In this document: positions 2,377 to 39,199 of the stretch, piece after piece | How the letters are laid out: each line of letters begins with the position of its first letter | Position numbering within the stretch: the stretch's first letter is position 1 | NCBI GenBank assembly: GCA_950096615.1 | Contig: CATNCP010000028.1 | Location: 1 to 39,199, forward strand | DNA: 39,199 nt | Direction: 5' to 3' | DNA from: an uncultured Kangiella sp. | Lineage (GTDB): Bacteria > Pseudomonadota > Gammaproteobacteria > Enterobacterales > Kangiellaceae | Translations under genes and position numbers: made by a program | The notes under the pieces: generated by a model | Told to the model about the DNA's origin: nothing | The model's input: only the letters and a program-made list of their open reading frames with translations | Databases searched by the model: none

Positions 2377-5202
2377 TCAAAGCATCGGCTTTAAGTATTT
2401 ACCGGTATAACTGCCTTTTTCTTTGGCGACGTCTTCAGGTGTGCCAGTAGCGATGATTTGCCCACCTTTGCTGCCGCCTTCTGGGCCTAAATCGACAATC
2501 CAGTCAGCAGTTTTGATAACGTCGAGGTTGTGCTCGATAACAACAACTGTGTTGCCATGATCGCGTAGACGATGCAGGACTTTGAGCAGTTGATTGACGT
2601 CGTGGAAGTGTAGACCTGTTGTTGGCTCGTCGAGAATGTAGAGCGTTTGGCCTGTGTCGCGCTTCGATAATTCACGCGAGAGCTTAACCCGTTGTGCTTC
2701 ACCGCCTGAAAGAGTCGTCGCGGCTTGGCCGAGCTTGATGTATGACAAGCCGACGTCCATTAAGGTTTGCAGTTTACGCGCCACCGCTGGGATCGCGTCG
2801 AAGAACTCACGTGCGTCTTCGACAGTCAGCTCCAACACTTGATGAATGTTTTTGCCTTTATACAAGACTTCCAAAGTTTCACGGTTATAGCGTTTGCCTT
2901 TACACACATCACAAGCCACATAAACATCCGGCAAGAAGTGCATTTCGACCTTAATCACGCCATCGCCCTGACAAGCTTCGCAACGTCCGCCTTTGACGTT
3001 GAAACTAAAACGTCCAGGCTTGTAACCACGAGCACGTGACTCTTGCGTACCAGAGAACAGTTCGCGAATCGGTGTGAAGATTCCCGTATAGGTCGCTGGG
3101 TTCGAACGCGGCGTTCGGCCAATCGGGCTTTGGTCAATATCAACCACTTTATCGATATGCTCTAGGCCGTCAATCGAGTCATAAGCCTTCGGCTGTAAAC
3201 TCGATTTATTAATTTTACGGGCAACGATAGGGTAGAGCGTATCGTTGATTAGTGTTGATTTACCTGAACCAGAAACACCGGTAATACAAGTTAATAAGCC
3301 CACCGGTAAGTCGAGGCTGACTTCGTTTAAGTTGTTGCCGGTCGCGCCTTTGAGCGAGATAAATTTCTTTTTATCCGCTTGAGTGCGCTCTTGTGGCACT
3401 TCGATTTTTAAATCGCCTGTCAGGTATTTGGCGGTTAAAGAATCCTTTTTCTTTAAGATGTCTTTCAGTTCGCCAGCGGCTACAACTTCGCCGCCATGAA
3501 CGCCTGCGCCAGGACCTATGTCTACCACATAGTCTGCCGCGCGAATTGCATCTTCATCGTGCTCGACCACGATGACGGTGTTGCCTAGATCGCGAAGGTG
3601 AATCAATGTTTTGAGCAGTCGATCATTATCGCGTTGATGTAAACCAATCGACGGTTCGTCCAAAATATACATCACGCCAACGAGCCCCGCGCCAATTTGG
3701 CTGGCAAGTCGAATACGTTGAGCTTCACCGCCCGAAAGCGTGTCTGCGCTACGCTCCAGCGTTAAGTAATCGAGGCCAACATTGACTAGGAAGCCCAGGC
3801 GGTCACAAATTTCTTTTAAGACTTTGGCGGCAATTTCACCGCGTTGTCCAGGGAGGTCGAGTTTATTAAAGTAATTGTAACTGTCTTCAATCGACCAGCG
3901 TGTAATCTCAGGAAGCGCGGTGCTTTCAATAAATACGTTGCGCGAGCTTTCGTTCAAGCGAGTACCGTCACAGCTGGAACAGCTTTGTGTGGTCATGTAT
4001 TTCTGTAACTCTTCACGAACTGCGCTGGATTCAGTTTCATGGTAGCGACGCTGCATATTCGGGATAATGCCTTCGAAACGATGCTTACGCTGATAGTTAT
4101 CACCACGATCATTGCTGTATTCAAAGTTAATCTGGGTGGTGCCGCTGCCGTGTAAAATAACTTTCTGGGTTTTCTTGTCAAGGCTGCTCCACGGCGCTTC
4201 AATATCGAATTTGTAGTGCTTAGCCAAAGACTTCAGCATGTGGAAATAATAGACGTTTCGACGATCCCAGCCACGAATGGCTCCGCCAGCTAACGAAATA
4301 TCTTCGTTAGTAATGATTTTGTCAGGGTCAAAGAATTGGTCGACGCCCAAGCCATCACACGTAGGGCAAGCGCCCGCTGGGTTGTTGAAGGAGAAAATAC
4401 GTGGCTCAAGTTCTTGAATCGAGTGACCACACGCAGGGCAGGCGTATTTTGCCGAGAAAACCATTTCTTCAGCGTCTTTGTCTGAATTATCCATCGCGGC
4501 TACTCGCGCGATACCGTCCGCTAATTCAAGCGCAGTTTCGAATGACTCTGCTAAACGTTGCTGTAAGTCTGGTTTAACTTTGAAGCGATCGACAATAACT
4601 TCAATTGTATGTTTTTTGCGTAGCTCTAGTTCTGGCGGATTCGCTAGCTCATGGACTTCGCCATCGATTCGCGCACGCACAAAGCCTTTGGCTTGAAGCT
4701 CTTGCATCAACTGAATATGCTCGCCTTTGCGGTTTTGAACCACTGGCGCTAACAGCATCAGTTTTTCACCGGCTTCACGCTCTAACACTAAATCAACCAT
4801 TTGACTAATCGTCTGAGCTTGTAGCGGTAGCTGGTGCTCAGGGCAGTGCGGCGTGCCGACACGTGCGAATAACAAACGCAGGTAATCATAAATCTCAGTG
4901 ATAGTACCGACCGTTGAGCGCGGGTTGTGCGAGGTCGATTTCTGCTCGATCGATATCGCTGGCGATAACCCTTCGATGTGCTCGACATCTGGCTTTTCCA
5001 TCAATGATAGGAACTGGCGTGCATAAGCAGAAAGAGACTCAACGTAACGACGCTGACCTTCGGCATACAAAGTATCAAAGGCTAGTGAGGACTTACCTGA
5101 GCCGGAAAGGCCAGTGATCACTATCAGCTTGTCACGTGGAAGGGTTATATCAATGTTCTTGAGGTTGTGGGTTTTTGCACCGCGGACGTCTATGGTATCC
5201 AT
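2377..5202 (-). CDS. uvrA: Excinuclease ABC subunit A
   Basis: This is the damage-recognition ATPase of nucleotide excision repair, acting as a dimer with UvrB. The 941 residues match the usual length and read close to E. coli UvrA throughout. Walker A motifs are GLSGSGKSS near residue 31 and GVSGSGKST near residue 640, and both ABC signatures (LSGGEAQR) are present. Zinc modules appear as CPACGHS with CPTCDGLGV, and as CEACQGDG with [10 protein letters not shown] chose the ATG at 5202 rather than the in-frame TTG at 5205: the AGGAG at 5207-5211 leaves 4 nt to the ATG but only 1 nt to the TTG. It is divergent from the MFS gene. I see no canonical CTGT-N8-ACAG LexA box in the 257-nt gap. Confidence 0.97.
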
Positions 5203-28254: not shown

Positions 28255-29940
28255 CTAAATATGTACTCGCCCTTTTTGCTTCACTTTGCCTTTCACTAAA
28301 ATCTCATCAGCCTGCTCAATCAAGGCTTCAGCGGTGATAGGCTCGTCGGGATGTGTCGTCACACCACCAATTGTTACCGCGACAAACAAGGGTTCTTTGT
28401 CACCGTTAATAACGGGCTTCTCGGTAATACTGGTGTGGATTCTTTTCAGAAGTTGAGCGGCATCTTGCTCCCCCGAAACTTGTGCAGCGATAATGAATTC
28501 ATCGCCACCATAGCGACCTAGTAAGTCGAACTCGCGCAAAGCATCGTGTGTTCGTGTTGCGACGGCGCGTAAGATATTATCACCCATAATATGATTGTAC
28601 TTATCATTAATCAGTTTGAAATTATCTAAATCCAGTAATGCAAGAACGAGTGTGTTTTCGGAGCGATGGATGCGATGAAGCTCTTCATTCAGGCGCTCGA
28701 TAAATGCTGAACGCCGTAAGCAGTTAGTTAAATAATCGTAAGTTGCATTGTGATAATAAAGCCAGTGTTTGTGGATCAAAATTAGAGTTAGAACGATAAA
28801 AATTCCAATTAAAAATATCGGTGATATGAGACCTTCTAGTTCACTCATAAATGCTGGGAGCATTTGAATATCGACTAAGATATCGAAGAGTACCGCAACT
28901 AAAAATGCTACCAGTGACCAAGCCATAAATTTTGCATAAGGTAACTTTTCTTTTATGGCTCGATAGAATAGGTAAAGGTAAAAAGGTATCAATACAAAAA
29001 CACTGACTGCTTGAAGCAGGTGCACAAGATGGTAGATATGATCAATATTAATAAAAAGCGCGACTAAGCAGTAGAGCGCTAAAAAGCTCACCAGTGGGAC
29101 CTTAAACCAGTTTGTGACGCGGTGTTTGAAGAAGGACGTCATAAACATAAAAAATAACAGGGTTAATAAACCAAACAATACAATGTTGGCTCTAAAGATA
29201 ATATTGAGGTGTATGTCAGAAACAAAGGCAAAGTGTGAGTAAGTTAAAATATAAACCGCTTCTGCAACGCAGAATAATCCGAAGTAGAGGTGGTCACGGC
29301 TCTGAGGCTGTGCTGCAAAGTAAAACCCTTGAACGGCTGCGATGATGAGCATGATACCCACGTAAAGCATTAATAAGCCTTCAGAGGCAACTTGTTCATT
29401 AGTGATAGCCTGTGAACTTTTGATGACTGGTGCACCGCTACTTAAGCCACCTTGACGTGCATGATTATAGACGCTGATAACTAATTCATTGAATTCGCTC
29501 CCTCCAAATCTAAGCGTAGAGCTTGGCAGGTGGTAGCTGCGCGAATACAGTGTTGCTTTTTCAAAGTTCGGTGGGAACTGGCCTGTTTGTCCAATCAGCT
29601 TACCATTCAAGAAAACTTTGTCGGCGTCTCGCAAGTGAGGAATATAAAGCGTTAGCGGTGTATTTTGGTAAGTATCATCGAGGGTAAAGTCGGTTTTGTA
29701 TATGGCAAAACCATTAAAGTTATCGAAGTTATGCTCAATGGAGCCGACGGTCTCTTGAGTTTCACACTCAACACTTCGCTGAGACTCATCTTTAACACAC
29801 AAGGTCCAGTAGTCATTAAGTTCTATGTGGGGTGTTGCTGGAATTGGATTAGCAGAGAGCTTATCAGCGCTAAGAAGGCTGAGGATACATAAGAGTAGGG
29901 TAAACAGTAAACGATAAATAACACGCCCTCCTATTGGCAT
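28255..29940 (-). CDS. 7TMR-DISM membrane diguanylate cyclase
   Basis: This 561-residue protein makes the second messenger c-di-GMP. After an N-terminal signal/hydrophobic segment (residues 9-30) comes an extracytoplasmic jelly-roll domain (about 35-185, with NTPLTLYIPHLRDADKVFLNG) like the galactose-binding-type 7TMR-DISM sensor. Seven membrane helices (about 190-390) follow, then a GGDEF domain. The active site is GRYGGDEF, intact, and an RxxD inhibitory site (REFD) sits five residues upstream, so product inhibition is expected. No EAL domain is present. The ligand is unknown, perhaps a carbohydrate. It converges with the SDR gene, separated by 32 nt without a clear terminator. Confidence 0.92.
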   Translation of the reverse strand: MPIGGRVIYRLLFTLLLCILSLLSADKLSANPIPATPHIELNDYWTLCVKDESQRSVECETQETVGSIEHNFDNFNGFAIYKTDFTLDDTYQNTPLTLYIPHLRDADKVFLNGKLIGQTGQFPPNFEKATLYSRSYHLPSSTLRFGGSEFNELVISVYNHARQGGLSSGAPVIKSSQAITNEQVASEGLLMLYVGIMLIIAAVQGFYFAAQPQSRDHLYFGLFCVAEAVYILTYSHFAFVSDIHLNIIFRANIVLFGLLTLLFFMFMTSFFKHRVTNWFKVPLVSFLALYCLVALFINIDHIYHLVHLLQAVSVFVLIPFYLYLFYRAIKEKLPYAKFMAWSLVAFLVAVLFDILVDIQMLPAFMSELEGLISPIFLIGIFIVLTLILIHKHWLYYHNATYDYLTNCLRRSAFIERLNEELHRIHRSENTLVLALLDLDNFKLINDKYNHIMGDNILRAVATRTHDALREFDLLGRYGGDEFIIAAQVSGEQDAAQLLKRIHTSITEKPVINGDKEPLFVAVTIGGVTTHPDEPITAEALIEQADEILVKGKVKQKGRVHI

Positions 29941-30033
29941 ACTATGTCAATCCCTTAAGCTTTGCAAAACCTTTGTAAGTTGTTTATTTCAGTCAATATT
30001 TTGTTATATGACTTTTTATTAAAGTTGAATCAT

Positions 30034-30061
30034 AAAAAAGGGGGAGCTTTATCCTCCCCCT
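30034..30061 (-). terminator. Intrinsic terminator of the M28 peptidase gene
   Basis: On the minus strand CCCCCTC and GAGGGGG (30060-30054 and 30046-30040) form a stem, followed by six T (plus-strand A at 30034-30039). It lies about 27 nt after the peptidase stop. Confidence 0.9.
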
Positions 30062-30087
30062 AGTTTGTAAGCAGATCTGTAACAGAC

Positions 30088-31821
30088 TTATTTCTGTTTC
30101 ATGCTTTCGTCACGAATACTTCTGAACTCAGTACCTTCATACCAGTTCGGGAAGGCTTCTGAATTACTTAATAAGTAGCCAGCTTCAAAGAAGATTCGGA
30201 TATCTTCAAGCGCTGCTTGCCATACCCAGTCTTCATGATATTCGTCACACAGTGAGTGGTAACATTCACCACGCATTTTAGTCCACTTATCAGCTGCTTC
30301 TTTATCAGCATCGTCGCGGAACTCAGTACCGCCACCGCCGTAAACTGCCGGAACACCAAATTTAGCTAGGCTGAAGTGATCAGAGCGATAATAACCGCCA
30401 CGCTCTGGAGCGCTTTCTGGACGTAATTCACGACCTTGACGCTTAGCCGCTTGTTCAACATAAGTCTCAACTTCTGACTTTGGATAACCCACCACAGTAA
30501 AGTCTTTCATACGGCCACTGACATTCATGCTATCAATGTTAAAAGCACCAACGATGTTAGTTAGAGGAACGGTAGGGTTTGCGGCGAAATATTTAGAACC
30601 CAGTAAGCCTTGCTCTTCTGCCGTGACAGCGACGAACGTTACGCTGCGATCAGGAGCTTCTGGAAGCTGCTTGAATGCTTGAGCGATGCTAATAATGCCT
30701 GCTGTGCCCGTGGCGTTGTCGATAGCGCCGTTATAAATATGGTCGCCTTCCATGCCATCGCGAGAACCTAGGTGGTCCCAGTGAGCCATGTATATCACGT
30801 GTTCTTCAGGGCGTTTCTTGCCAGGAATCGTTGCGATAACATTCGCCGACTGAGATTCCTGAATCGTGTTCTTAATATCGACCGACGCTTTGCTATCCAA
30901 AGGAACTGGTTTGAAGTCTTTGCTTAATGCGTTTTTTTGTTGCTCTACTAGGTCTAAGCCCGACTGCTTAAACAGGTTATGGGCTTGATCTAACGTGATC
31001 CACATTTCTGCATCTAACTTAGGCACATTACCAGTGCTTGGTAAATGATATTGTGGCCCAGACCAGCTGCTCGAAACCACATTCCAACCATATGAAGCTG
31101 GGGCCGTTTCATGAACGATGATGGCGCCAGCAGCACCTTGGCGTGCGGCTTCTTCATATTTATAAGTCCAACGACCGTAATAAGTCATTGCTTTACCTTG
31201 GAAAATACCAGCGTCAGGTTGTGCAAAACCTGGGTCGTTGATTAGGATGACGGCAGTTTTACCTTCCATATCAACGCCTTCATAGTCATTCCAGTCATAC
31301 TCTGGAGCAACCACACCGTAACCGACATAGACCAAATCCGAGTCTTTCAAACTAATAGATTCGACGGTTTGTGAAGTTCCAGCAACAAAGTCTTTGCTGT
31401 ACTCAAGCGTAGAGTCGCCTAGCTGAAGCGCCATGTCAGCATCAGCTTCAATACTGATCAAAGGTACTTGCTGGAAGTAGCTATCACCATTCCCCGGTTC
31501 AGCGCCTACCGCTTTGAATTGCTCTTTAAGGTACTCAGAAGTCTTGCGACCACCTTCTGTGGCTGGGCTGCGGCCTTCGAATTCATCGCTAGAAAGCGTT
31601 TTAACACGCTCTTTATAGATATCGAGATCGATATTGTCATAAGCCGTGAGGAAATTGTTCTGGTGCTTACCTGCATTGTTTTCGGTTGCTTTGCTTGGCT
31701 GTTCTACTTTTGCAGGGGCTTTTTCAGCGGTTTGTGCTTTGTCAGTTTTAGCTGATTCTTTATCGCCGCAAGCCGTTAACAAAAGCGCAGCAACGGATAA
31801 ACTCAAGGTTGTTTTTTTCAT
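30088..31821 (-). CDS. M28-family zinc aminopeptidase-like lipoprotein
   Basis: This 577-residue envelope peptidase has a lipoprotein signal ending in the lipobox LLTAC (Cys18), followed by a Lys/Ala/Glu-rich linker of about 35 residues. Zinc ligands of the M28 fold are visible: His and the following Asp in AHWDHLG near 347, Asp in GAIDNATG near 368, the catalytic Glu pair in TAEEQG near 402, Asp in FNIDSMN near 429 and His in YRSDHFSLAKFG near 480. An inserted PA-type domain lies around residues 140-260 (GAAGAIIVHE). It likely removes N-terminal residues from peptides at the cell surface or periplasm. AAAGG lies 7 nt before the ATG. It is divergent from the S9 peptidase. Confidence 0.93.
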   Translation of the reverse strand: MKKTTLSLSVAALLLTACGDKESAKTDKAQTAEKAPAKVEQPSKATENNAGKHQNNFLTAYDNIDLDIYKERVKTLSSDEFEGRSPATEGGRKTSEYLKEQFKAVGAEPGNGDSYFQQVPLISIEADADMALQLGDSTLEYSKDFVAGTSQTVESISLKDSDLVYVGYGVVAPEYDWNDYEGVDMEGKTAVILINDPGFAQPDAGIFQGKAMTYYGRWTYKYEEAARQGAAGAIIVHETAPASYGWNVVSSSWSGPQYHLPSTGNVPKLDAEMWITLDQAHNLFKQSGLDLVEQQKNALSKDFKPVPLDSKASVDIKNTIQESQSANVIATIPGKKRPEEHVIYMAHWDHLGSRDGMEGDHIYNGAIDNATGTAGIISIAQAFKQLPEAPDRSVTFVAVTAEEQGLLGSKYFAANPTVPLTNIVGAFNIDSMNVSGRMKDFTVVGYPKSEVETYVEQAAKRQGRELRPESAPERGGYYRSDHFSLAKFGVPAVYGGGGTEFRDDADKEAADKWTKMRGECYHSLCDEYHEDWVWQAALEDIRIFFEAGYLLSNSEAFPNWYEGTEFRSIRDESMKQK

Positions 31822-32011
31822 AATGCTACCTTTTAGTGATTTAGTGGGCTCATATTACCCATGGTGCGAAGGAATCTCAATGTTTTGAGCTCGAAATGAG
31901 CATCTAAATTAGAATTTTCTAATATTAAGCTTAACTGAGGCTTCCTTTGACTTGACTGTGACGGCGATGGGGGTAAGCTTAGTACACTTTTGTTATGTGT
32001 GGAGTAGTTAA

Positions 32012-34438
32012 GTGGTCATGAAACAATCAATTAAATCATGGGTTGTGGCGGCTGGCGTTGCTGCTGCGGTTTCTTTTGCGGCAACTGCCGGAGCCAAAGA
32101 TGCTGTAAAAACTCAATTAAGCCTTGAGCAGGTTATGGCTGATCCTGATTGGATTGGCAATGCGCCTGAGTCACCTTATTGGGCAGATGATGGTCAATCA
32201 ATTTATTATCAGCAGAAAGTTAAAGGTCATAACGAACGAAAATTATGGCAACTCGACTTAGCGGCAAATGATCTGCAAGCAATCACTGATGAAGAGTTAT
32301 TTGAAGTGGACAGCCGTGGCGGTGATATCAGCCCAAATAAAAAGCTGAAAGTTTATAACCTGCGCGGTGACTTATACGTTAAATACCTCGACTCTGGGGA
32401 TGTTCGCCAATTAACGAAAACACATGCCAATGAAGGTCGCCCACAGTTTATTGGTAACGATACGGTTACGTATCGTGATAATAATTCTTACTACAGCATC
32501 GACTTATCCTCGGGCTTAGTGTCGCAATTGGTTGATATCCGTTTAAAGGATGACCCGAATAAAGAAAAAGAACCAGGCTATTTAGAAAAGCAACAAACGC
32601 GTTACTTTGACTATATTCGCACGCAACAAGAAGAGCGTGATTACAACGAACAACGTCAGAAAGACATTGCTGCCAGCAGTTCACGTTCGGTAAATGACCC
32701 TTGGTATTTAGGTAAGAAGGAAATTCATACTTTAAGCTTGTCGCCAAATGGAAAGTTTGTGGTGGTCGGCACTTATGAGAAGTCTGACAAAAAAGGCAAG
32801 AGTGACAACATGCCTCGTTTTGTGACTGAAGATGGTTATGTTAAGAACGAAGAAGTTCGCCCTTTAGTCGGCACTTATACTCCTCGTAATGAAACTTTGT
32901 ATTTATTAGATTTAACCACGGGTGAAAAGTCAGAGCTAAAATATGATCGCTTGCCTGAGTTAGATGATGATCCCTTAGCGGATATTAAGCGCGCTACTGC
33001 AAAGCGTAACGGCGAGAAATATAAAGCGGACAAAAAACCACGTGGCGTGGCGGTATTCGACTGGATTGCTAATGGTGGCATTGAGTGGAATGCGAGCGGT
33101 GACTCGGCAATCATCATGCTTTATTCCGATGATAATAAAGACCGCTGGTTAGTGAGCGTCGATACTGAGGATAAAGAGTTGAACACCGAGCATCATTTGC
33201 GTGATATGGCGTGGGTCAATGATTGGAATTTTAATGATTTTGGTTGGGTAGATGATGAGACTATCTACTTCACAGCGGAAGATACTGGCTACAGTCACTT
33301 ATACGTCAAAGAGTTGGGCGATCGTCCTGATGCGTTAACCCAAGGTCGTTATGTGGTCGATAGCGTCAGCAAAGATCCAAACAGTGATTATTTGTATTAT
33401 CGCGCCAACAAGAAACACCCTGGGATTTATGAAGTGTATCGCGTAAAAGCGTCCGGTGGTGATTCAGAGGCAGTTACGGATCTGGGCGGTAAGAATGACT
33501 ATGTGCTATCGCCAAACGGGCAGCAGTTAATTATTAGTCACTCTGAAGCTTTAAACCCACCAGAGCTGTATGTGGCTTCGGTATCTGGGAGCGAGGCTAA
33601 GCAAGTGACCTTTACCACCTCTGATAAGTACAAATCGTTCCCTTGGTCGAAACCAGAATATGTCGAGATTCCTTCGCGAGAAGTGGATCAGCCGATTTAT
33701 GCACGCCTATATAAACCGCAAGGGTTTGATGCTGAGCGTGCCGACAAATACCCTGCAGTGATATTTATTCATGGCGCTGGTTACTTACAGAATGCTCACC
33801 AAGGCTGGTCAGGTTATTTTCGTGAATTCATGTTCCACACCTTCTTAAACCAACAGGGTTATGTGGTGCTGGATATCGATTACCGTGGTTCGGCTGGCTA
33901 TGGCCGTGACTGGAGAACGGCTGTTTACCGTAAGATGGGTACGCCTGAAGTGGTGGACTTAATTGACGGAGCCAATTGGATGGAAGCTAATGCAAATATC
34001 GATCGTCAAAATGTCGGCATTTATGGTGGCTCGTATGGTGGTTTCTTAACCTTTATGGGCTTGTTTACAGCGCCAGAAGAATTTGCGGCGGGGGCATCAT
34101 TACGTCCTGTGACGGACTGGGTGCATTACAACCATCCGTACACGTCGAACATCTTAAACACACCAGAAGTGGACCCGGTAGCTTACGAGCGTAGTTCACC
34201 GATTGAGTTTGCGGAAGGTTTGAACAAGCCGCTATTGATTGCCCATGGTATGGTTGATGACAATGTGTTCTTTAAAGATACGGTACGTTTAGTTCAGCGT
34301 TTAATTGAGCTGGAAAAAACCGAGTACTTTGAAACCGCAGTTTATCCTATTGAGCCGCATGGCTTTAAAGAGCCGTCAAGTTGGTTAGATGAATACAAAC
34401 GTATTTATTACTTGTTCGAAGAGAACTTGAAAGACTAG
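32012..34438 (+). CDS. S9-family (prolyl oligopeptidase/DPP-IV-like) serine peptidase
   Basis: This 808-residue exported peptidase has a signal peptide ending near AATAGA before KDAV, an N-terminal beta-propeller with WD-like repeats (about 40-560), and a C-terminal alpha/beta hydrolase domain. The catalytic triad is Ser in GGSYGGF near 673, Asp in GMVDDNVFF near 748 and His in EPHGFKEP near 785. DPP-IV-like enzymes cut peptides after a penultimate proline or alanine. I use the GTG at 32012 because GGAG sits 7 nt upstream; the ATG at 32018 is 13 nt away but would give nearly the same signal peptide. With the divergent M28 enzyme it suggests growth on peptides. Confidence 0.93.
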   Translation: MVMKQSIKSWVVAAGVAAAVSFAATAGAKDAVKTQLSLEQVMADPDWIGNAPESPYWADDGQSIYYQQKVKGHNERKLWQLDLAANDLQAITDEELFEVDSRGGDISPNKKLKVYNLRGDLYVKYLDSGDVRQLTKTHANEGRPQFIGNDTVTYRDNNSYYSIDLSSGLVSQLVDIRLKDDPNKEKEPGYLEKQQTRYFDYIRTQQEERDYNEQRQKDIAASSSRSVNDPWYLGKKEIHTLSLSPNGKFVVVGTYEKSDKKGKSDNMPRFVTEDGYVKNEEVRPLVGTYTPRNETLYLLDLTTGEKSELKYDRLPELDDDPLADIKRATAKRNGEKYKADKKPRGVAVFDWIANGGIEWNASGDSAIIMLYSDDNKDRWLVSVDTEDKELNTEHHLRDMAWVNDWNFNDFGWVDDETIYFTAEDTGYSHLYVKELGDRPDALTQGRYVVDSVSKDPNSDYLYYRANKKHPGIYEVYRVKASGGDSEAVTDLGGKNDYVLSPNGQQLIISHSEALNPPELYVASVSGSEAKQVTFTTSDKYKSFPWSKPEYVEIPSREVDQPIYARLYKPQGFDAERADKYPAVIFIHGAGYLQNAHQGWSGYFREFMFHTFLNQQGYVVLDIDYRGSAGYGRDWRTAVYRKMGTPEVVDLIDGANWMEANANIDRQNVGIYGGSYGGFLTFMGLFTAPEEFAAGASLRPVTDWVHYNHPYTSNILNTPEVDPVAYERSSPIEFAEGLNKPLLIAHGMVDDNVFFKDTVRLVQRLIELEKTEYFETAVYPIEPHGFKEPSSWLDEYKRIYYLFEENLKD

Positions 34439-36971: not shown

Positions 36972-37784
36972 ATGGTTTTATCCCGAACAATTACTACTTT
37001 TTGTCTAATCTCTGGCTATATTGTTATAGGCCTATCTGGCTGTTCTAGCAAAACAGACACCTTTGCGTTAAAAGAAAACCAAGAACGTTGGTTTTGTACG
37101 CCACAAGGTGAAGATGACTGGTCTTGCGATGAGTCTAAGCGTGAGTTCGAGCAACTAGCAAAAAAAAATAAATTCGTCGAAGAAGAGCAGAAAGAATCGA
37201 CTGTTCCGGTTGATACTGACACAGACCTAACTAGCCCCACCTTGATCGCAAAAGAGCTGACCAATGAACAAGCGGAACAGCCCGAGCGTCTATCAGAACG
37301 AGACATCTCAGCCCAAGAAAACTCAGTTCAAGAAAAATCAACTCAGTACACCGGGCCAGCTGAACTAAGTAACGCAGTATCAGAGCCAGAACTTGCTTCT
37401 AGCGCTACTGTAGACAAGTTACTTGACGCTCCAGCTGAAGAAACTGAACGTCTCGACATGGATCTTGAGCGGGTATCAGAGACTAGTATGGCTGAGAGTA
37501 TGGCTGAGAACAAAAGCCCCGTGCAAGCCACAGTATCTACCTGGGTGGTTCAATTGGGAGCTTATGGTTCGGAAGCAGCTGCTGATGAGCTAGTGCAAAA
37601 AGTGGGGCAGGGCGATGTTTTTAAAACACAAGTTCGAGGACGTTTTTACTTTACGGTGGTGGCTACTGGTTTTTCGCAAAAGTCTGAAGCCGAACAATTT
37701 GCTCGTGAAATAGAAGGGCGCCAATTAGGGATATCTCCCTGGGTTCGAAAAGGCGCCTCTTTACAGAAATTTATTGTCGATTAG
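36972..37784 (+). CDS. SPOR-domain lipoprotein
   Basis: I start this at the ATG at 36972 (270 residues), because it gives a clean lipoprotein signal with lipobox LSGC (Cys24); a TTG 17 codons upstream is in frame but would add a poor N-terminus. A central region (about 60-190) is acidic, Glu/Ser/Thr-rich and likely disordered. The C-terminal 75 residues are a SPOR domain (STWVVQLGAYGSEAAADELV, later FYFTVVATGFSQKSEAEQFA), which binds glycan strands lacking stem peptides at septal peptidoglycan. A role near the division site is therefore likely. Its stop overlaps the stop of the convergent thioredoxin-like gene. Confidence 0.86.
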   Translation: MVLSRTITTFCLISGYIVIGLSGCSSKTDTFALKENQERWFCTPQGEDDWSCDESKREFEQLAKKNKFVEEEQKESTVPVDTDTDLTSPTLIAKELTNEQAEQPERLSERDISAQENSVQEKSTQYTGPAELSNAVSEPELASSATVDKLLDAPAEETERLDMDLERVSETSMAESMAENKSPVQATVSTWVVQLGAYGSEAAADELVQKVGQGDVFKTQVRGRFYFTVVATGFSQKSEAEQFAREIEGRQLGISPWVRKGASLQKFIVD

Positions 37785-38302
37785 TCTGATGAACTTTCAA
37801 TAATGTTAAGCAGCTCAACCTCGATAGGCTCTGAGGTACTTTCTACGATACGTCCCTTTTCTTCTTGGTTTTGATACACAACAATTGTTGGTGTGTATTT
37901 AACCTTCGCTTTTTTTGCTAATCCTTGACTGTCTGATTTATTTCTATCTAAAGCGATAAGCTGCAATTGTATGTTGGGATTATTTAGCTGTTTTTTTAGC
38001 TTTATCAAGTTCGGAATTTCACGCTGACTGTCATGACACCAAGTACCAAAATAAGCGATGATTTGTGTTGGTGTTGTGACTGCATTCAACTGTTCTACGG
38101 CTGACAGCTTTAATTCTTGATGGCGCTTAACAGAAAATATTGGATAGTTACTTTGCAGTTCATCAATGGTGATGGGGCCTGCAGCATCCATATGTTTTTC
38201 GAAGCGGCTTGGGGAGTGTTCGTTTTGTTGATGTGACGAGTTTGTTTTACAGGCCGATAAAGCAACAGCCATCATTATAAGTAACGTTAATTTCGAGGTC
38301 AT
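37781..38302 (-). CDS. Thioredoxin-fold lipoprotein with CHDS active-site motif
   Basis: This 173-residue protein has a lipoprotein signal with lipobox LSAC (Cys18), so it faces the periplasm or envelope. The thioredoxin fold shows TQIIAYFGTWCHDSQREIPNL around residues 78-97 and the cis-proline loop KYTPTIVVYQ near 136. The usual CxxC is CHDS, so only one active-site cysteine remains. Related families with WCxDS occur, probably acting as monothiol exchangers or binders. The ATG overlaps the stop of the PanE-MsrB gene as ATGA, implying translational coupling. MsrB enzymes need a thioredoxin-like reductant, but the predicted compartments differ. Confidence 0.85.
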   Translation of the reverse strand: MTSKLTLLIMMAVALSACKTNSSHQQNEHSPSRFEKHMDAAGPITIDELQSNYPIFSVKRHQELKLSAVEQLNAVTTPTQIIAYFGTWCHDSQREIPNLIKLKKQLNNPNIQLQLIALDRNKSDSQGLAKKAKVKYTPTIVVYQNQEEKGRIVESTSEPIEVELLNIIESSSD

Positions 38303-39199
38303 GATTTTTCCTGTTCGAATTGTAAGCTAACGGAATTTACACAAAACCGCTGGCCGGTTTCAGTCGGGCCATCATCAAAGATATGGCCAAGGTGAGATCC
38401 ACACTGGGCGCAAAGAATTTCAGTACGACTCATGCCATGACTGTCGTCTGATTTGTAAGCAATGGCTTTATTATCTTGAGCTCGATCAAAGCTAGGCCAG
38501 CCACAGCCTGAGTCAAATTTGGAGTCATCTTTAAATAATGGCGATTCGCAACAGACGCAATGATAAGTGCCCTGCTCATGATGTAGGTTGTAAGAGCCTG
38601 AAAAAGGAGGCTCGGTACCATGTTGTTGAGTGACATGAAACGTTGCGGGATCAAGGTTGTTAATGTTTGCCTGAGCTAACTGCTTTAATGGCGGGTAGGC
38701 GATATGGAATTCACTCCAAAGTCTCCAGTTGTGAGGAACGGGAATATCATACTTTGAGGCTTGATCGAGCAAGTAGCCGTTAATGGCATCAATTTCGGTC
38801 AAGTTTCCCTTAAGGACATCTTGCAACATTGATGATTGATTGTTCGCGGTTGCTTCGATGACGTTTACGATTGTTTCTTTTAGGGGCGCATCAAGGTTAA
38901 TAGCTAAAGTATCTGCTAAACGCTGGTTTTCATTAATTAAAGCTAAAACCTTAGGCCACTTGTCGCTATCAAGCAATTCTCCGTTTTTGCACTGATAAAT
39001 CGAGGTTAATGGATTAACCACTGCGTTAATGAATAGCTTCTGCCAAAGGATGTTGTTAATAGTGGAGTGCCACTCGGCATTAAGCGCATCACAGATCTGC
39101 TGGGTAAGAAACTTCGGTTTTGAATCGCTTTCTAGATGACCAAACGTTACCTTGCCTTGTCCTGCATAGTGAACGGCTTGCTTGGCTTTGATATAAGCA
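38299..39199 (-). CDS. Ketopantoate reductase-MsrB fusion protein, 5' end cut by window edge
   Basis: One open frame runs in from the right edge without a stop until TGA at 38301-38299. The first part is the C-terminal half of PanE/ApbA ketopantoate reductase: HYAGQGKVTFGHLE, then WQKLFINAVVNPLT with the catalytic Lys, NGELL, and SSMLQDV leading to TEIDAINGYLL with the catalytic Glu. PanE normally makes pantoate for coenzyme A. About 20 residues later a full MsrB domain begins: FHVTQQHGTEPPFSG, zinc CxxC pairs CVCC and CAQC, FDSGCGWPSF, and catalytic Cys in RFCVNS. MsrB repairs methionine-R-sulfoxide. No Met lies in the linker to start a separate MsrB. The PanE Rossmann half lies beyond the window. 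Confidence 0.9.
   Translation of the reverse strand, partial: AYIKAKQAVHYAGQGKVTFGHLESDSKPKFLTQQICDALNAEWHSTINNILWQKLFINAVVNPLTSIYQCKNGELLDSDKWPKVLALINENQRLADTLAINLDAPLKETIVNVIEATANNQSSMLQDVLKGNLTEIDAINGYLLDQASKYDIPVPHNWRLWSEFHIAYPPLKQLAQANINNLDPATFHVTQQHGTEPPFSGSYNLHHEQGTYHCVCCESPLFKDDSKFDSGCGWPSFDRAQDNKAIAYKSDDSHGMSRTEILCAQCGSHLGHIFDDGPTETGQRFCVNSVSLQFEQEKS

Follow-up and report, generated by a model that had tools for sequence, protein, structure and literature searches.

In the genus Kangiella, a 2-dehydropantoate 2-reductase (PanE) is joined end to end to a peptide-methionine (R)-S-oxide reductase (MsrB) within one open reading frame. The sequences establish this fusion, its conservation, the retention of the checked functional residues in both halves, the synteny of the locus and the grouping of the fused sequences in one clade. 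We consider it likely that the product is a bifunctional cytoplasmic PanE-MsrB enzyme, derived from one ancestral Kangiella fusion of nearby genes and with both halves in their usual jobs. The locus provides a clean example of two unrelated metabolic genes becoming one, since one can observe the gene order of the family, a relative in which the two genes are adjacent and in frame but unfused, and the genus with the fusion. It leads to the prediction that one Kangiella polypeptide supplies pantoate and repairs oxidised methionine, and an annotation naming one half only would miss the other. The fusion reveals no new chemistry.

The fused gene and its functional residues

The window, that is the whole stretch of DNA analysed, is an entire contig of 39,199 bases (C28 of assembly G000) which stops inside the panE-msrB fusion gene (Table 1). 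Some 122 codons on the 5' side of the gene fall outside the contig, and the window copy is for this reason without the Rossmann half. The original prediction, made from the window alone, expected this half further to the right; it is indeed found in the 22 full-length relatives and on contig C41 of the same assembly. The same prediction proposed an in-frame fusion of the two enzymes, and the single minus-strand frame gives Pfam matches to ApbA_C (PF08546, E 5e-31) and to SelR (PF01641, E 2e-50, 169.8 bits). The thioredoxin-fold protein encoded downstream has a lipobox-like start and a WCHDS motif with a single cysteine in the motif. Its gene lies just downstream of the fusion in all 22 extracted loci, and a simple motif scan retrieved a lipobox-like pattern in 13 of the 22 proteins. 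Elsewhere in the window (28255-34438), genes for a 7TM diguanylate cyclase, a peptidase M28 and a prolyl-oligopeptidase S9 stand together.

Table 1. Position of the fusion gene, its parts and the adjoining gene in the window
Feature	Position	Strand	Remarks
panE-msrB fusion gene	38299..39198	-	3' 299 codons and stop; frame cut by the contig end
PanE part (most of the C-terminal domain)	38737..39198	-	ApbA_C match at residues 47-163 of the 299-aa frame; checked positions invariant
PanE Lys	39037-39039	-	Corresponds to K176 in the G002 protein
Junction, 39 codons, from PHNW up to GTE (GTE not included)	38620..38736	-	End of the PanE tail and MsrB head
MsrB catalytic part	38299..38619	-	Zinc CxxC pairs, resolving Cys in SGCGWPSF; SelR match at residues 182-295 of the 299-aa frame
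MsrB catalytic Cys	38341-38343	-	Within the MsrB catalytic part
Thioredoxin-fold protein gene	37781..38302	-	Downstream of the fusion; overlaps the fusion stop by ATGA (four bases)

Twenty-two full-length fusion proteins of 419-432 aa were extracted and 24 sequences were compared. Four of the 22 are duplicates (proteins identical to those of G007, G011, G001 and G016), which were kept among the 24 and dropped for dN/dS and the junction column counts, leaving 18 full-length sequences. Twenty positions were checked, namely three Rossmann glycines, eight positions of the PanE active site and nine of MsrB (four zinc cysteines, the resolving Cys, a Trp, a His, the catalytic Cys and an Asn), the roles being those usual in the two families. 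All 20 are invariant wherever sequence is present (23 or 24 of the 24 sequences), one sequence missing at some of them because of a contig end. In particular, no sequence that includes the region departs from the NADPH-binding GxGxxG or from the catalytic Lys, Asn, Ser and Glu, the zinc CxxC pairs and the catalytic Cys of MsrB occur in 23 or 24 of 24 and its resolving Cys in 24 of 24, which bears out the complete MsrB with zinc and catalytic cysteines first read from the window. The full-length relative G002 passes the cut-offs of both TIGR00745 (PanE; 199.1 bits vs 141.35) and TIGR00357 (MsrB; 170.3 bits vs 113.05), the narrower PanE equivalog models listed scoring under their own cut-offs.

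Mean identity over the 153 pairs of the 18 sequences is 0.55 in PanE, 0.61 in the junction and 0.76 in MsrB. Median dN/dS, which rests on the few synonymously unsaturated pairs among these 153, is 0.147 in PanE (5 pairs), 0.168 in the junction (2) and 0.069 in MsrB (4). Both halves look active from their sequences, and the suggestion that the fusion was kept because both of them stay active fits this evidence.

Distribution in Kangiella and beyond

Of 20 Kangiella genomes, 19 carry the fusion. The gene is complete in 18 of them and truncated by the contig end in the window's assembly. These 19 are all the genomes with a completeness of at least 86%; G008, the remaining one, reaches 55%, and its sole match is of the MsrA-MsrB type. 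Several of the fusion-bearing relatives are single-contig genomes, and the copy of G004, first listed with one stop, is an intact ORF of 421 aa. Among the best 80 of 140 related stretches, from genomes of 84,980 species, four matched both halves and all are from Kangiella (K. shandongensis, K. aquimarina and two further Kangiella, with proteins identical to those of G007, G001, G011 and G016). Since the fusion is genus-wide, present in 19 of 20 genomes and in these four records, a frameshift by sequencing error, named at the outset as a possible refutation, is excluded.

No full-length match was found in the other 20 of the 40 family genomes (five genera), nor, outside Kangiella, among the matches listed for the order (295 genomes, of which 17 are Kangiella and 278 are others), the class (369), the phylum (398) and seven genomes reached via other loci. 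The order, class and phylum sets overlap and together represent about 1,000 genomes of the phylum, among whose listed matches no second fusion lineage appeared; a full-length fusion should top the matches listed, and a strongly diverged or long-linker fusion could escape. An earlier account of a PanE-MsrB fusion was not found in literature titles and abstract openings, most subscription journals being outside this scope.

Several candidates were set aside. Nine long frames with MsrB, of 357-892 aa (G600, G490, G345, G372, G570, G699, G910, G982 and G843), are without a PanE part; in these, MsrB appears to start on its own, and the upstream frame looks open by chance. Six frames of 294-357 aa from sister-genus genomes of the family (L189-L194; G020, G023, G028, G029, G030 and G032) are MsrB-MsrA proteins and not PanE fusions, because each of the six has an MsrA motif following MsrB and none has a PanE motif; the G020 protein matches SelR and PMSR in Pfam. 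L037, from an uncultured bacterium (MsrB 54%), was examined and is not a fusion.

A second fusion copy (G000:C41:22172-23278; L002, L125) is interrupted by the end of contig C41 in the same assembly as the window; it covers residues 1-369 and passes through the junction. It shares 80.8% DNA identity with the window copy over 743 columns. Compared with G002 at the protein level, four genes next to the C41 copy reach 92-97% identity and the C41 fusion only 83%; the window copy is 96% identical, with window neighbours ranging from 59% to 99%. Along the gene, the window copy is closest to G002 over the central part and less close towards the 3' end, and G002, assembled in one contig, has a single fusion copy. 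Either tandem copies or a duplication, or recombination, or two alleles mixed in the assembly would account for this pattern, and the fusion finding is unaffected by it.

Junction, predicted structure and place in the genome

The distance from INGY, in PanE, to GTE, in MsrB, is 55 residues in all 24 sequences. Among the 18 non-duplicate full-length sequences, indels affect no column of the PanE C-domain, the junction and MsrB (to residue 415), vs 16 columns in residues 1-165. Across 20 rows, nine columns out of the 39 in the junction do not vary (W.LW..FH...PP, and TQ); this share, 0.23, is to be compared with 0.24 in residues 1-165, 0.30 in the PanE C-domain and 0.52 in MsrB. Four of five unfused PanE tails from the family end 26-28 residues past INGY and that of G034 ends 50 past, and six invariant junction residues (W, W, F, H, P, P) are, by eye, absent from these five tails; five unfused MsrB heads hold a L..y.+T...GTE-like sequence. 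Judging from these lengths and sequences, very little of either protein seems to have been lost in the fused chain.

The linker had been described as devoid of an internal start codon. This stands for the window, where the sole in-frame ATG, GTG or TTG between INGY and the MsrB GTE is a TTG located 51 codons before GTE, but does not extend to the genus as a rule: among 17 relatives tabulated, an in-frame start lies 9 codons before GTE in G006 (ATG), G013 and G003 (both GTG), a GTG lies 5 codons before GTE in G018 and G007, and TTG occurs in several. These starts leave room for a possible extra MsrB made alone in some species.

Matches to solved structures assign residues 2-285 to PanE (1ks9) and 298-419 to MsrB (6sym). 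The AlphaFold2 model of the K. shandongensis fusion protein, built with a 23-row alignment, has a mean pLDDT of 91.7 and a pTM of 0.87, the latter suggesting that the PanE and MsrB domains would pack in a fixed way. Helices run through the junction (278-290, 295-302 and 307-314), which is mostly helical in the model, with a pLDDT of 92-95 as far as residue 310 or so and 77 beyond it; confidence drops over residues 311-330 (block means 77 and 61) and at the very end of the chain (65). The top fold match of the model is the ketopantoate reductase of Pseudomonas aeruginosa. The best 50 of 345 fold matches (E up to 0.001) are all of the PanE kind, with no MsrB and no two-domain chain among these 50, so that the MsrB fold is not demonstrated by this search. 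D-mandelate dehydrogenases are also among the fold matches, a likeness by which the PanE half may use another 2-ketoacid substrate.

In a search limited to ApbA_C, as distinct from ketopantoate reductases such as PanG, the fusion is the sole match in 18 fusion-bearing genomes, and PanB and PanC domains are present in all 40 family genomes. IlvC can also reduce ketopantoate in E. coli. Its C-terminal domain (PF01450 search) was retrieved in only 9 of 20 Kangiella genomes, and 10 of the 19 fusion-bearing genomes are without an IlvC match, nine of these 10 being at least 95% complete. By the same search, two KARI_C matches were observed in 15 of the 16 non-Kangiella family genomes having an IlvC match; this pairing and the patchy IlvC suggest different IlvC types within one family.

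As to whether the window's genome holds a further panE or msrB, a point raised by the original prediction, the answer differs between the two: ApbA_C occurs twice, only on the C28 and C41 fusion copies, and a separate MsrB of ordinary length is present as well. Such an MsrB is found in only 4 of 20 Kangiella genomes (G000, G002, G004 and G019). Kangiella also has a protein of the MsrA-MsrB type elsewhere in the genome. An MsrB match of about 37% identity lies in frames of 443-476 aa in all 20 genomes, and the sole such frame read (L004 505-1857, G000:C47) is of this type, its MsrB part being without the zinc cysteines and showing TGWLSF instead of SGCGWPSF.

Origin of the fusion, competing explanations and known systems

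Gene order was read in 20 regions from 15 of the 20 other family genomes (G023, G027, G028, G029 and G030 left out). In seven of these 15 (G022, G025, G031, G033, G035, G036 and G039), panE and msrB share a strand with a gene of about 580 aa between them, which encodes a histidine kinase in the one copy scanned; ampG adjoins panE in six of the seven, and a small opposite-strand gene precedes msrB in G022, G025 and G031. Six others (G020, G021, G024, G032, G037 and G038) have panE and the kinase gene without msrB beside them, and G026 has the kinase gene and msrB at a contig end. G034, the sole member of its genus here and 73% complete, displays ampG, panE, msrB and a thioredoxin-like gene as in Kangiella; the SPOR-like gene (by eye) that comes next does not cluster with that of Kangiella. 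In G034, panE and msrB are adjacent in one frame; only one TGA and a spacer of 117 bases, free of any other stop, come between them. A 511-aa open frame at this locus resembled a second fusion; G034 is nevertheless unfused, because the TGA at L131:3594-3596 closes panE and msrB has a later start, at 3714, and a separate search gave 335 aa. Two separate genes in related genomes, which had been put forward as evidence against the fusion, do not occur inside the genus and do occur in the other genera of the family, where they indicate an origin by fusion of neighbouring genes.

In the trees, the fused PanE sequences form one clade (100/99) with G034 as sister (96/93). The fused MsrB sequences also form one clade (100/99, 116 columns), and their placement near G034 is weak (83/85) and also takes in 14 MsrBs belonging to other families of the order. 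The fusion would have a single origin, in the Kangiella ancestor, from two nearby co-oriented genes: the kinase gene would have been lost from, or never present in, the lineage of Kangiella and G034, and the panE stop and the spacer would have been lost afterwards. We infer this order of steps, as well as the activities of the halves and their independence. The N-terminal half would carry out the NADPH-dependent reduction of ketopantoate for pantothenate, and the C-terminal half would reduce methionine-R-sulfoxide by means of its catalytic Cys and its resolving Cys, with thioredoxin to recycle them. The halves are probably independent in their chemistry and held by a short, ordered and conserved junction, and the fusion would persist since the genome has no other, or no other major, copy of either half and the two can fold normally next to each other.

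It is rather unlikely that the two enzymes are functionally coupled with a benefit beyond co-expression, for example through protection by MsrB of its own PanE half or through a joint control by CoA. The constant length of the junction, its invariant columns with the six residues unseen in unfused tails, the helices running through it together with the high pTM, and the presence of the fusion in every sufficiently complete genome of the genus would all suit such a coupling. No link between the PanE and MsrB substrates is apparent, however, the genes are unfused in other genera, the share of invariant columns in the junction does not exceed that of the Rossmann half, and a tail and a head that just fold onto their domains would also give a constant length. 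The other idea of the original prediction, that the fusion might tie an NADPH enzyme to the repair of oxidative damage, finds no positive support here, and the conserved junction is only compatible with it. PanE feeds CoA synthesis and CoA can modify MsrB cysteines. A rigid PanE-MsrB unit that co-senses CoA supply and methionine/cysteine redox state, for example with CoA-linked MsrB cysteines feeding back on ketopantoate reduction, seems very unlikely. The CoA-modified peptide tables of one study contain two MsrB cysteine peptides (GWPSF and CINS motifs) and one 2-dehydropantoate 2-reductase peptide (PMC5989533), which speaks for a coupling through CoA; this is the sole lead to a common theme and a thin one, and it comes from other bacteria and a large table.

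That one half is a relic or has been repurposed, the PanE half for instance no longer making pantoate and merely carrying MsrB, is very unlikely: PanE evolves faster than MsrB, as their mean identities indicate, but its 11 checked positions are all invariant, and it belongs to the only ApbA_C gene found in genomes which keep panB and panC and, for about half of those bearing the fusion, have no IlvC match. The chance that a sequencing or assembly error joined two genes is negligible. The window contig does break inside the gene and the partial copy at the C41 end is divergent, yet the same open frame is found in the 22 extracted relatives, several of them single-contig, and continues through the junction on C41.

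Taken as a bifunctional enzyme with both halves in their usual jobs, the Kangiella protein can be set beside three known systems. It resembles PanE/ApbA (TIGR00745; 6k1r, 5zik, 1ks9) by its full-length match, its GxGxxG and checked Lys, Asn, Ser and Glu, and a fold match over about 300 residues, and differs from it in bearing a complete MsrB at the C-terminus. With MsrB (TIGR00357/PF01641; 6sym, 6q9v), it shares the two zinc CxxC pairs, the resolving Cys of CGWPSF and the catalytic CVNS, but MsrB here follows PanE in the same chain, and the linker of the window offers it no separate start. The MsrB-MsrA and MsrA-MsrB fusions (e.g. 3e0m, 7e43) likewise present MsrB as one domain of a two-enzyme chain; their partner mends the other sulfoxide form, whereas the partner in Kangiella is a vitamin-synthesis enzyme.
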